From: Liolophura sinensis
Taxonomy: Eukaryota; Mollusca; Polyplacophora; Chitonida; Chitonidae
Assembly: GCF_032854445.1 (NCBI RefSeq)
Contig: NC_088296.1
Coordinates: 1,056,001 to 1,120,000, forward strand
Direction: 5' to 3'
Length of the DNA: 64,000 nucleotides
Shown here in pieces: positions 11,901 through 57,900 of this stretch (its first letter is position 1; every line of letters begins with the position of its first letter). The translations under genes were made by a program, and so were the position numbers. Under the pieces are notes generated by a model. It saw only the letters and a list, made by a program, of their open reading frames with translations, did not search any database and had not been told where the DNA came from.

Positions 11901-14900
11901 GTGAAACAATTTTTTAATGTTCAGATCCTTGAAAAATTCTGTAAGCAAATCTGTTATAAGTGCTGTGGATTCCTCCATCGTCAGATGACTGAAAAATTGT
12001 TAAACGACGTTAAACCCCAAACACTAAACCCCAAGCACTCACTCACTCACTCACTGTTACCAGTGTATATCCTTATTACAGTTGAGTATAAATTGTTAAG
12101 TACAATGTTGAACCCCAAGCACTCACTGTTGAAAGTGTATATCCTTATTACAGTTGAGTATAAATTGTTAAGTACAATGTTGAACCCCAAGCACTCACTT
12201 GCTCACTGTTACCAGTGTATATCCTTATTACAGCTGAGTATAAATTGTTAAGTACGACGTTAAATCCCAAGCACTCACTGTTGCAAGTGTATATCCTTAT
12301 TACAGTTGAGTACAAATTGTTAAGTACGACGTTAAACCCCAAGCACTCATTCACTCTAAAGCAGTGTTTGGGACATTGATACTCACAATATGTGCTCGTA
12401 ACTTACCTTGTTGTTGTGGTTAGGTAAAGAGAATGAAGAGCCGGAGAAGCTGAGCTGTAAAATGAGATGTAATGAGAATAGCGCCGAGGCCGACAAGGCT
12501 GTCGAGGAGAACAACAACAACAACAACGCCCTGGCGCTGGAGTGCCTTCCCCTGGCAAATAGCGGCACCTGTGAGATGACGTACTGCCCAAGTCCTGAGG
12601 AAGAGGAGGCCGCTGAAGAGAGCATGGAGGAATGGGAGCATGAACAGTTTGACCCGTGAGAGTTACTTCCCCCTTGTTCTGTGTATCGCAGATATTGTCT
12701 GACATCTCTGACTGAGCTGACACCGTGGTTTTGTTCCTTGATTGTATATTATATATTATTGTAGTCTGTTTATGGAAAATTAAGAGAACATGGTCACGTA
12801 ATGTTTTGTACAAAGCAAAAGATAGAAGTTTGAAAAGGATCTGTGCACGGACACATACTGTAGAGACTTCCCTAATTCCTCAACCTTTTCACATATGAAA
12901 AAGCAACTTTCAGTGCAATTTCTGAACATTTTTAATTTGATTTTGGAAACAGAACTACATTTTGTGGATCAGTCAGTTTCACGGCTTCACAAAGTATTCA
13001 GAATTAAAATAATTTTATCAGTCAACACAGAATAATATCTTCATACATGTATATGCTTGAATAAACATGTGCAGGTTGAAGAATCACATCTCCAGACCTT
13101 GACGTAGCAAAGATAGATGTAGCAACAGCAGGAGAGTTGATCTGTATACAAGTTGCCATAGCCAGGGGTTCGCGTTCCTGTCATGCCAATTGGCTGACCT
13201 CAGACTTTCCTGTTTGATTTTATCAGAATAAGCCAAACACATGAGTATCATCATGAAGCTCTGGTAAATGTTCAGAGCACTCAAATGTCACCCACTCTTT
13301 GCGGACAGCAGCGGGTGAATCATTTACTGCAGAGTTATGCCCTCTTAGTACAAGCTCTCCCAATTTCTTTAATAGGTATCACTTCATAAGGAATCTTCCT
13401 CCCCTGACAGAAGAGCTCCGTGCTCGAGTGCCCGCCCTCCCTTTGAAGACTCGCAGTTCTCCCGAGTTCTCATTGGTCCTAGATTTGGTGAGTTACCATC
13501 TGCATCTCTTTGGTTGTCTGAGGCTTGAAGGGATACAGAATGTATGCTTATTGGCTGACAGTGGAGATAGGATTACCTGGGTTAAACCTTACAGCCTTGG
13601 TTATGTTTGAATTAATCTGCCATACCTAAAATTCATCTTATGCTGGGCATAAGATTTTTATTCCTTGTTTCAGTGAATGCGATGGATATTAGTTTGAGTC
13701 AATCTGTCTGTCTGTCAGGCTTTGGTTTCAGTAACTTGTCATCTGATTTTGCTAGAATTTTAAGTGCAAGTTGATCTTCATCTTGTAGCCTCAGATCAAG
13801 TTTTACACTCAACTGGATTCATGAATTTTCTGGGGTTATTTTTGCAAGTTCAACAATATCATGAATTATTATCGGTTGTTGGTTTCTGTGTAATACCATT
13901 TTTCAACAATTGCCTGAAGTCTTATCAGTTTTTGGTTTCTGTATGTTACCTGTGTCAAATATCGCTTCAAGTCTTATCAGTTGTTGGTTCTTTATATCAC
14001 CTGTGTCAAATATTGCCTGAACTCAGTACATTGTAGTCTTGTGGAGCTAGAGGACGCAGTGTTTACCTTCCGTGTTTTATTTCGTATTTTGCCTGTATAT
14101 TGCAGGATGAGACACTGGTACATTGTAGCCTTGTGGAACTAGAGGACGCAGCTTTTACCTTCCCTGTTTTATTTCAAGACGTTACATATCAGGTGAGAAA
14201 ATAGTTAAAGCCATTTCTCCACTTCAGGGTTGACACAGGGCCCGAAAACTTGGAAGGCCCTGGGAAATAAAGCTAAAATCTCCAGACCCTGGAACACTTT
14301 GAAAAATTAGTTAGTTTTTTGAAAAGTACAGAATTGTGACTCCATAATTCCCACATATTCTTCTGTTACTTCGCAATAGTATCCCGGTTCTGATTGGTAA
14401 CCTGCCCTTCTTTGATGGAATGAAAGACCTCACAAACGTTTTGTTATTAAATAGAATATTAATTTAAAGTGTTAATAAAGTGCCTTCCCCAAGAGAAGTG
14501 TATATACCAGGTACAGGTCTTTCTCACTAGTTGTTTGCATTTGATAAATAAAGAGCTATGTAGGCCTTGAAAAGTCATTAGATATTCAGTCAAGCATCCC
14601 CATGTCCTTAAACATTTCTTGAATTTAGGTGTGCTAACCCCCTTGGCCACGGAGGCCCCTAAAATATCATTTTACTACATTTGTGAGCTTCTCAAAGTGC
14701 ATGTTTACATTCCAAGTTTTAGGTGTAGTACAATGACACTTGTGTCATATCCATGTTGGTTTGTCGCTGTTGTTACAGGTGTACGTGAGAACGCGGCCAT
14801 ACTTCCGGGAGTTCCTGGAGAGAGTCAGCGAGTGTTTTGAGGTGATACTCTTCACTGCGTCCAAGAGAGTCTATGCTGACAAGCTGGTGAATCTGCTTGA

Positions 14901-54900: not shown

Positions 54901-57900
54901 CTATCTCTCTATACTGTAGGTTACACTGCCCAGACTCAGTACCACTGTGAGCGGGGACGTGACATCATGTTGAGTGGTGCACTCACCTCATCCTCAGACC
55001 AGGAGAAAGCTGACATCTACACTCTCATCAGTCAATCAGTCACTTAGTCCATCATTCTCTATCTCTCTGTACTGTAGGTTACACTGCCCAGACTCAGTAC
55101 CACTGTGAGCGGGGACGTGACATCATGCTGAGTGGGGTACACACCTCATCCTCAGACCAGGAGAAAGCTGACATCTATGCTACCCTGACCAAAATTTACC
55201 TCACCTTGGGGAAAGCACTTACTCAGATGAAGAAGTATCCTTTTAATTGAGAACTAGATCTGAAAAGAAATCAGTGATATTTTCTTTGCTTGTTTGTGTA
55301 CTTATATGTACATATATTAAACAGGTATAAAGGCCTTTTATTTGACTTTTAATACCTGATTTAACTTTAAGCGAAGTGTTTATGTAACATTATATTAGCT
55401 CAGTCCTTTGCTGTTATAATGTGTTTTGGTCATCTCCAGTAGCTTCTGAGTTCCGGCAATGCACTATTGATCAACTTTTGATTAAAACTGTATAAAATAA
55501 TATATAGAATATTTGCACAATGAAAGTTAAATGCATTAAAAACATGTGCATCAGTGAGAACATACAGATTTTGCTGTGATTGGTTTACTCTGCCTAATTT
55601 CTCCTCAACTGTGTAAAGATATAAAGAAGCTGAACAGTCCCTCAAGAAAGCCGACAAAGTGATCGGAGAGAGAGGCCAGCTGTCATGTGTGAGTGACGAG
55701 GAATGTGATCAGGTGGAGATAGAACTGTCATTAGCTCAGGCCAGGTAAGACAAGTGACAGTCTCAGGTGAGGTAGTAATCTTTGAGGGGGGGCCTCCGTG
55801 GCTCAGTTAGTTAGCCCACTAGCTCAGCTTAATGACCCGGAAGCCTTTCACCAATGCGGTCGCTGTTAGTTTAAGTCCAGCTCATGCTGGCTTCCTCTCC
55901 AGCCATAAGTGGGAAGGCCTGTCAGCAACCTGCGGATGGTCGTGGGTTTTTGCCGGGCTCTTCTCGGTTTCTTCCCACCATAATGCTGACCTCCGTCGTG
56001 TAAATGAAATATTCTTGAATACGGCGTAAAACACCAATCAAATAAATAAATAAATAATCTTTGAGGTACATGTAACAATCTCAGGTGAGGTAGTTATTAA
56101 TCTGGTAATAATGTGAGGTACTGATCTGTCCAGTAACAATCTTAGGTGACAGTTAACAAGCAAGGTAACAACCTCAGCTAAGTTAATAATTGGACATGAA
56201 ACAATTTCAGGTCAGGTAGCAATCAGACAGGTGACAGTCTCAGGTTAGGTAGTAATCCGACAGGTAACAGTCTCAGGTCAGGTAGCAATCAGACTGGTGA
56301 CAATCTCAGGTCAGGTAGTAATTAGACAGGTAACAGTCTCAGGTCAGGTGGTAATGTGACTGGTGACAATCTCAGGTCAGGTAGTAATTAGACAGGTAAC
56401 AGTCTCAGGTCAGGCGGTAATGTGACTGGTGACAATCTCAGGTCAGGTAGTAATTAGACAGGTAACAGTCTCAGGTCAGGTAGTAAAACAACAGGTAACA
56501 GTCTCAGGTCAGGTAGTAATTAGACAGGTAACAGTCTCAGGTCAGGTGGTAATGTGACTGGTGATAATCTCAGGTCAGGTAGTAATTAGACAGGTAACAG
56601 TCTCAGGTCAGGTAGCAATCAGACAGGTAATAGTCTCAGGTCAGGTAGTAATTAGACAGGTAACAGTCTCAGGTCAGGAAGTAATCCGACAGGTAACAAT
56701 CTCTGGTCAGGTAGTAATTAGACAGGTAACAGTGTCAGGTCAGGTAGCAATCAGACAGGTAACAGTCTCAGGTCAGGTAGCAATCAGACAGGTAACAGTG
56801 TCAGGTCAGGTAGCAATCAGACAGGTAACAGTCTCAGGTCAGGTAGCAATCAGACAGGTAACAGTGTCAGGTCAGGTAGTAATTAGACAGGTAACAGTGT
56901 CAGGTCAGGTAGTAATTAGACAGGTAACAGTCTCAGGTCAGGAAGTAATCCGACAGGTAAAATCTCAGGTCAGGTAGTAATACGACAGGCAACAATATCA
57001 GGTCAGGTAGTAATCAGTCCAATGACAATCTCAGGTCAGGTAGCAATTATACAGGTAACAGTCTCAGGTCAGGTAGTAATCAGACAGGTAACAATTTCAG
57101 GTCAGGTAGTAATCCGACAGGTAACAGTCTTAGGTGAGGTAGTAATCAGTCCGATAACAATATGAGGTCAGGTAGCAATTAGACAGGTAACAGTCTCAGG
57201 TCAGGTAATAATCAGTCTAATAACAATATGAGGTCAGGTAGTAATCAGTGAGGTAACAATCTTAGGTGAGGTAATAACCAGGTAATGCTGTCTGGTGAGG
57301 TAGTAATTTGACAGGTAACAATCTGAGGTGGGGTAGTAATCTGTCATGTAAGTCAAACACTTGCCCTTGAGGTAATGTGCTCCTCTGTAAGTCAAGTGGT
57401 CTGCTGGATAGGTAATCTTTAGCTGTGTTGTTGTTGTACAGGTTGTTCAGCGCCCAGAAGAAGATCGCCCTGGCACAGAGCCGGTACGGGGAGGGCCTGG
57501 AGCAGATACAGCGCTCCCTGGGGGATGATCACATTGACCTGATTCCAGTCTACCAGGAAATGGGCAAAATATCCTTTACTAACACTGATCAGTTATGACA
57601 AGACAAGAGGATGTTATAAAATGTTACCCTCTTTTGGTGCTAAAACATTCATTTTTACATTTGGATATTATCCTACATTTCAGATCAACTGCAAAACACG
57701 TTTCTAACCTCACTGTGTTCATGTAACTGTGTAGTATGAAAGTTCTGCTCATAGTAAAAGTATTATTGTTTACATGCTAGTGCAAAGAGGAAAGAAACTC
57801 CCAGGTGTGCTGCCCTGCTGTACAGCCAGGCGTGCTATCCTGCTGTGCAGTGATTACATGTGTATAGCTTAGGTTCATTCTCTCCATGATTAGCACGCAG

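Follow-up and report, generated by a model that had tools for sequence, protein, structure and literature searches.

Mirage-like minisatellites crossing exon-intron junctions of three neighbouring genes in the chiton Liolophura sinensis

Minisatellites of the "mirage" type, in which the tandem unit spans an exon-intron boundary, have been described in amphioxus, and the passages of PMC3087553 and PMC3902484 used here place them in Adh3, the globin genes BflGb6 and BflGb9, TnC and PGBD5, with units of 10-72 bp in Adh3 and of 150-160 bp in 3-6 copies in BflGb6. Two further systems are close to these. The introns of amphioxus VCBP3 contain whole exons or parts of exons beside the related coding exon, and some of these have canonical splice sites (PMC2632668, in the passages used here); introns can be gained by tandem genomic duplication of exon pieces that bear AGGT (PMC3443670, likewise). 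Here we analysed a stretch of 64,000 bp (the window) from one haplotype of the chiton Liolophura sinensis (Mollusca, Polyplacophora), the species of the genome paper PMC11068029, where it appeared as L. japonica, a name since amended to L. sinensis (PMC12441733). The units of six tandem arrays in this window cross homology-supported splice junctions, four donors and two acceptors, in the three genes CTDSPL2, WDR61 and TTC23.

Exon models were assembled from splice signals together with conserved protein sequence. The coding regions are as follows.

9004..18023, plus strand: CTDSPL2 coding region, 10 exons from splice signals and homology.
26021..43906, minus strand: coding region of WDR61 (SKI8), modelled with 10 exons and incomplete at its 5' end.
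48775..58540, plus strand: TTC23 coding region; the window takes in 7 exons and the gene runs on beyond it.

Arrays were located with Tandem Repeats Finder (TRF), and the exon bases in each were measured by extended wraparound alignment unless stated otherwise. The six junction-crossing arrays are the following.

15820..16587, plus strand: CTDSPL2 donor array, 86-88 bp units at the junction after exon 15737-15863, with 44 bp of exon (33 bp with a 165-bp unit).
26461..27240, minus strand: WDR61 acceptor array at acceptor 26515, with 55 bp of exon 26437-26515; sensitive alignment was needed.
34481..35908, minus strand: WDR61 donor array, 64-bp unit in about 22 copies, with 32 bp of exon 35877-35970.
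36153..40254, minus strand: WDR61 donor array, 46-bp unit in about 89 copies, at exon 40219-40367.
50202..50430, plus strand: TTC23 donor array, 31-bp unit in 7 copies, with 34 bp of exon 50067-50235 (28 bp by strict TRF).
54541..55177, plus strand: TTC23 acceptor array, 158-bp unit in about 4 copies, with 100 bp of exon 55078-55234.

A preliminary description of this DNA had named the same six arrays as iterated copies of the host gene's own exon-intron junctions, and TRF with wraparound or copy alignment bore this out for every one of them. Its further statements, that the units join exon bases to adjacent intron and that three unrelated genes on both strands are affected, agree with the exon content that we measured (about 28-100 bases) and with the position of CTDSPL2 and TTC23 on the plus strand and of WDR61 on the minus strand. 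It also had the arrays start exactly at a splice site; we found that they begin instead within the exon and span the junction. Exons of WDR61 and CTDSPL2 carry lower numbers here than in that description, the splice sites being identical.

The WDR61 acceptor array consists of the authentic copy and 4 upstream copies at uneven spacings of 135-213 bp, set within a tract that is C/T-rich on the sense strand. The unit of the WDR61 46-bp array holds roughly 36 exon and 9 intron bases, and at its donor 40219 the extended wraparound alignment ended at 40217 and showed no crossing, a 15-bp internal duplication being located there; strict TRF gave 14 exon bases, by way of the row of that duplication. 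We counted this donor as crossed because relaxed TRF extends to 40250, and also by copy alignment, in which the exon-side copy, with the stretch extended to 40254, shows 82% identity with the consensus of the array. By strict TRF alone, junctions were crossed at 5 of 45 loci, or at 4 of 33 with a period of at least 15 and a score of at least 100. The idea that units avoid multiples of three, suggested by the TRF periods of 86, 64, 46, 31 and 158 bp, failed on the WDR61 acceptor spacings of 135 and 213 bp.

Two weaker cases had been put beside these arrays in the preliminary description.

14026..14175, plus strand: CTDSPL2, two copies of 58 bp from exon 14106-14192, the extra one lying upstream of that exon's acceptor.
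56068..57351, plus strand: TTC23, array of a 33-bp unit in the intron that follows exon 55619-55744.

The first stood as a two-copy exon duplication, in which 14026-14083 and 14118-14175 share 91% identity at an offset of 92. The second proved purely intronic: its match starts at about intron position +4 and takes in nothing of the exon. The start of this 33-bp array is broken by an element at 55790-56060 which by eye resembles a short interspersed nuclear element; similar elements were seen at 17517-17770 and 8590-8850, with a common tRNA-like body and an ATAAAT-type tail.

Junction-crossing units could also arise as an artefact, from wrong exon boundaries or from stuttering of the assembly. 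In favour of this, no match named Liolophura was present among the best 120 of 2,521 matches for WDR61 or of 2,491 for CTDSPL2, many of the rows being without a name, and the L. sinensis protein P0121, the one near-identical relative of the TTC23 model (99% identity over the whole query), is a predicted protein whose record is labelled LOW QUALITY PROTEIN. On the other side, every junction keeps frame and conserved proteins are reproduced. Reading phases are compatible throughout the CTDSPL2, WDR61 and TTC23 models (10, 10 and 7 exons), residues 1-300 of the WDR61 model align with the human WDR61 chain of PDB 6gmh, and molluscan relatives of the CTDSPL2 model are numerous among the matches listed, with 53-65% identity across most of the model. 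P0121 equals the TTC23 model across all 308 residues, apart from 3 extra residues (LEQ) at one junction in P0121. Stuttering is opposed by the divergence of the copies, which differ on average by 2-12% from their consensus, and by the HiFi reads of the assembly, whose mean length of 8,347 bp (given in the part of PMC11068029 used here) exceeds the longest array in the window, 4,432 bp. An artefact is thus highly improbable, and assembly stuttering was rejected on copy divergence and read length, while exact copy numbers could still be wrong.

Compared with the amphioxus mirages, as these are set out in the passages used of PMC3087553 and PMC3902484, the chiton arrays are alike in that the tandem unit spans the boundary at 5' or 3' splice sites, the splice signal occurs in many, not all, copies, and the unit sizes overlap. 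They differ in being set in a mollusc, in reaching about 89 copies, and in occupying six junctions of three neighbouring genes. Homogenised interior copies, with the boundary copies exempt, would be expected of an amphioxus-type mirage; the chiton shows this pattern in the WDR61 46-bp array and not in the 64-bp array. The likeness is known on the chiton side from genomic sequence. The other systems are further off: the partial exons of VCBP3 are not described as tandem minisatellite arrays in the passages used of PMC2632668, and duplication of AGGT-bearing exon pieces, which likewise copies splice signals within genes, yields new introns (PMC3443670, in part), whereas in the chiton a junction is already part of the duplicated unit, and it is an intron already present that becomes longer. 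Taken together, the comparison suggests that the chiton arrays are mirages of the type already described, in a phylum for which we found no earlier report; the literature searched gave none outside cephalochordates, molluscs included. The likeness to amphioxus mirages had been pointed out in the preliminary description, with the remark that the phenomenon would be broader if the host were a lophotrochozoan; the host being a chiton, it is not confined to cephalochordates. This extends mirage repeats to a mollusc, at high density.

The arrays lie in a stretch rich in tandem repeats. TRF gave 79 rows, of which 74 had a period of at least 10 and merged into 45 loci, covering 28,401 of 64,000 bp (44% of the window). 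None of the rows lay wholly within any of the 27 modelled exons, and the 7 rows that overlapped an exon all crossed its boundary. Several large arrays of the same genes contain no exon sequence and served for comparison.

30007..34438, minus strand: WDR61 intronic array, 33-bp unit, 135 copies by TRF.
50504..52648, plus strand: TTC23 intronic array, 32-bp unit, 67 copies by TRF.
58586..61926, plus strand: TTC23 intronic array, 44-bp unit, 76 copies, with no match to the junction of exon 58467-58540.

Ordinary intronic minisatellites, represented by the exon-free arrays of these introns, match the junction arrays in unit sizes, copy numbers and block repeats; the junction units differ in including exon bases and a splice site. 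Two candidates, the arrays after WDR61 exon 42524-42609 and after TTC23 exon 58467-58540, were dropped as derivatives of those junctions, since each probe matched only itself. The exon-free WDR61 array at 41979-42464 has a 55-bp unit in which, read in the sense direction, a strong acceptor-like site is combined with a strong donor-like one; it resembles an iterated tiny pseudo-exon and shows no match to the nearby exon junction. Tandem DNA of this kind can escape general repeat catalogues: the 44% of tandem arrays found here stands against the 0.08% "other (simple repeat, microsatellite, RNA)" and 14.04% unclassified repeats in the part of the genome paper used (PMC11068029).

Whether so many junction-crossing arrays need a special cause was examined against a null model in which each array was collapsed to one unit and units of the observed lengths were placed at random. 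The null was set on the position of the seed unit and not of the grown array, because seed placement is the fair comparison. The test set comprised 34 arrays in the window (score at least 100, one compound locus being split in two), 24 of them in gene bodies. Within gene bodies, 3.39 junction arrays were expected (3.64 if exon-internal seeds are purged) and 6 were observed (P = 0.11 and 0.14). Junction strikes are not rare under this model, because the array-free gene bodies amount to 18.6 kb with 51 junctions. The preliminary description had argued that exon ends would seldom be caught up in random intronic minisatellites, and this argument did not hold. Strict TRF counts gave P = 0.049-0.103 across four thresholds. 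No wholly exonic array was observed, where random placement predicts 2.17 in gene bodies (probability of none, 0.10) and 1.79 in the window (0.16), so that the absence of exon-internal arrays carries little weight by itself. The excess over chance is therefore modest over the whole window and not significant within gene bodies, and the frequency of mirages in the window can be explained without a special targeting mechanism.

Random seeding is favoured on this ground, 6 arrays standing against 3.4-3.6 expected, and random seeding with tolerance is favoured because donors and acceptors are both affected and divergence within the units is similar for exon and intron sequence (exon/intron values of 0.084/0.066, 0.037/0.041, 0.020/0.000 and 0.100/0.111 in the four donor arrays). 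Tandem duplication and block expansion filled the introns of this minisatellite-rich stretch, and six of the arrays include an authentic junction. We consider it probable that these are mirage-type minisatellites, seeded at random and tolerated since splicing keeps the exon-side site. Seeds would arise roughly at random relative to splice sites, and arrays that add copies to coding sequence would be purged by selection. Junction-crossing arrays would persist where splicing keeps the exon-adjacent copy, that is, the first donor or the last acceptor; the extra copies would then all be intronic and free to drift, and unequal exchange or block duplication could enlarge and homogenise the interior. 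Selection tolerating only arrays with an intact site had been offered as an alternative in the preliminary description, and it fits the data.

Several results weigh against this account. Over the whole window, 2.10 junction arrays were expected (2.19 with purging) against 6 observed (P = 0.016 and 0.020), and the Poisson probability of 6 given 1.83 expected, in the 33-array set, is 0.011. Array loci were denser in gene bodies, with 24 there against 10 outside at nearly equal collapsed length (P = 0.024, with only the three modelled genes taken as gene bodies). Among the 17 exon-free intronic arrays, donor-like motifs looked over-represented on the sense strand (Fisher P = 0.0007), also without the TTC23 exon-5 array (P = 0.002) and with two other matrices (P = 0.004-0.010). 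Third codon positions were somewhat more variable in both arrays examined, at 0.108 against 0.065 and 0.069 in one and 0.068 against 0.036 and 0.014 in the other, which counts here because pure drift of intronic copies does not predict such an excess. Extra acceptors lie at offsets divisible by three in 2 of 4 cases in WDR61 and 1 of 3 in TTC23, judged by offset only.

The whole-window excess, the gene-body density and the donor motifs would be expected if splice sites or splice-like motifs promoted the first duplication, through R-loops, spliceosome-bound nascent RNA or transcription-linked slippage. We regard such targeting as unlikely, since the excess within gene bodies is not significant, acceptors are affected as well as donors, and the motif test is unspecific, its hypothesis having been formed partly after the units had been viewed. 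The antisense strand of the exon-free intronic arrays gave P = 0.06-0.40, and a control on intergenic arrays read antisense with a generic matrix gave P = 0.010-0.012; because this control is positive too, the enrichment is a lead and not a result. Acceptor-like motifs behaved similarly. They were more frequent on the sense than on the antisense strand of intronic arrays (P = 0.009), yet intergenic arrays, in which orientation is arbitrary, showed the same (P = 0.014), and intronic arrays compared with intron segments gave P = 0.11. Sense-strand G-skew was inconsistent as well: it was positive in just 3 of 6 junction arrays (Wilcoxon P = 1.0) and 9 of 17 other intronic arrays (P = 0.33), with a mean of 0.02 in 193 array-free intron windows. 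R-loop seeding, which the preliminary description had put forward, was rejected on this result, and a mechanism that starts duplication at junctions is not established, acceptors being affected too and donor motifs in the copies not specially conserved. A wider proposal, that real and cryptic splice sites are preferred birthplaces of minisatellites across Bilateria, from amphioxus to chitons, by seeding linked to splicing or transcription, appears unlikely; if true, much of the intron growth in such genomes would be junction-derived. Three neighbouring genes are too few to settle the targeting question.

The choice of splice site bears directly on tolerance by splicing. The homology-supported site is the exon-side copy at 6 of 6 junctions, and P0121 also uses exon-side sites in TTC23. 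Donors were scored with a donor-site matrix, alternatives being those within 1.5 bits of the authentic site or above. At WDR61 donor 40219 the array offers 80 alternatives, of which 67 score at or above the authentic site, 32 keep the frame and 1 keeps the frame without a stop. An open frame is kept by 1 of 16 alternatives at 35877, 0 of 6 at 50235 and 0 of 4 at 15863. Judged from these frames, the messenger RNA very probably uses the exon-side site, because other near-equal donors would almost always break the frame. The WDR61 intron with its 80 extra near-equal donors is a natural experiment in splice-site choice, where the reading frame almost demands the first donor and where kinetic order, exon definition or sequence context could decide.

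The abundance of strong alternative donors at 40219 would also suit arrays kept because they serve a function, such as that of decoy U1 sites or of regulated alternative splice sites, and most copies retain the GT (22 of 22 in the 64-bp array; for the WDR61 46-bp array, G in 83 of 90 and T in 89 of 90). GT retention is not above that of other unit parts, however: the donor 9-mer ranked 5/46, 30/64, 13/31 and 25/88 among equal windows of the unit, and 11/33 in an exon-free TTC23 array, by which special conservation of donor motifs in junction copies was rejected. Nearly all alternative donors break the frame, and exon-free arrays of the same introns have comparable unit sizes and copy numbers. 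Of 5 such exon-free arrays tested, 4 showed no greater conservation of the best donor-like 9-mer than of the remaining unit, and in the fifth it ranked 4/33. Maintenance for function is accordingly very unlikely.

Growth of the arrays by unequal exchange or by duplication of whole blocks is suggested by long exact repeats at whole-unit offsets: the WDR61 46-bp array holds one of 472 bp, offset by 20 units, and the TTC23 44-bp array one of 259 bp, offset by 12. At WDR61 36153-40217 the units thus form higher-order blocks, each 20 units (920 bp) long, and the 472-bp match belongs to these. The 46-bp copies are out of coding frame, because the consensus length differs from that of the exon copy. 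The first three copies of this array scored 0.82, 0.67 and 0.80 and most others 0.87-0.98; exon-adjacent copies are the most divergent here, and not so in the 64-bp array.

Two TTC23 introns, 55235-55618 and 57569-58466, have a U12-type look by eye, with donors GTATCCTTT and ATATCCTTT and branch-like TTCTCCTCAAC and TTCTCCTTAAC close to the 3' end, judged against the U12-type donor and branch motifs. The extra LEQ of P0121 would put the 3' end of intron 57569-58466 at a non-AG site.

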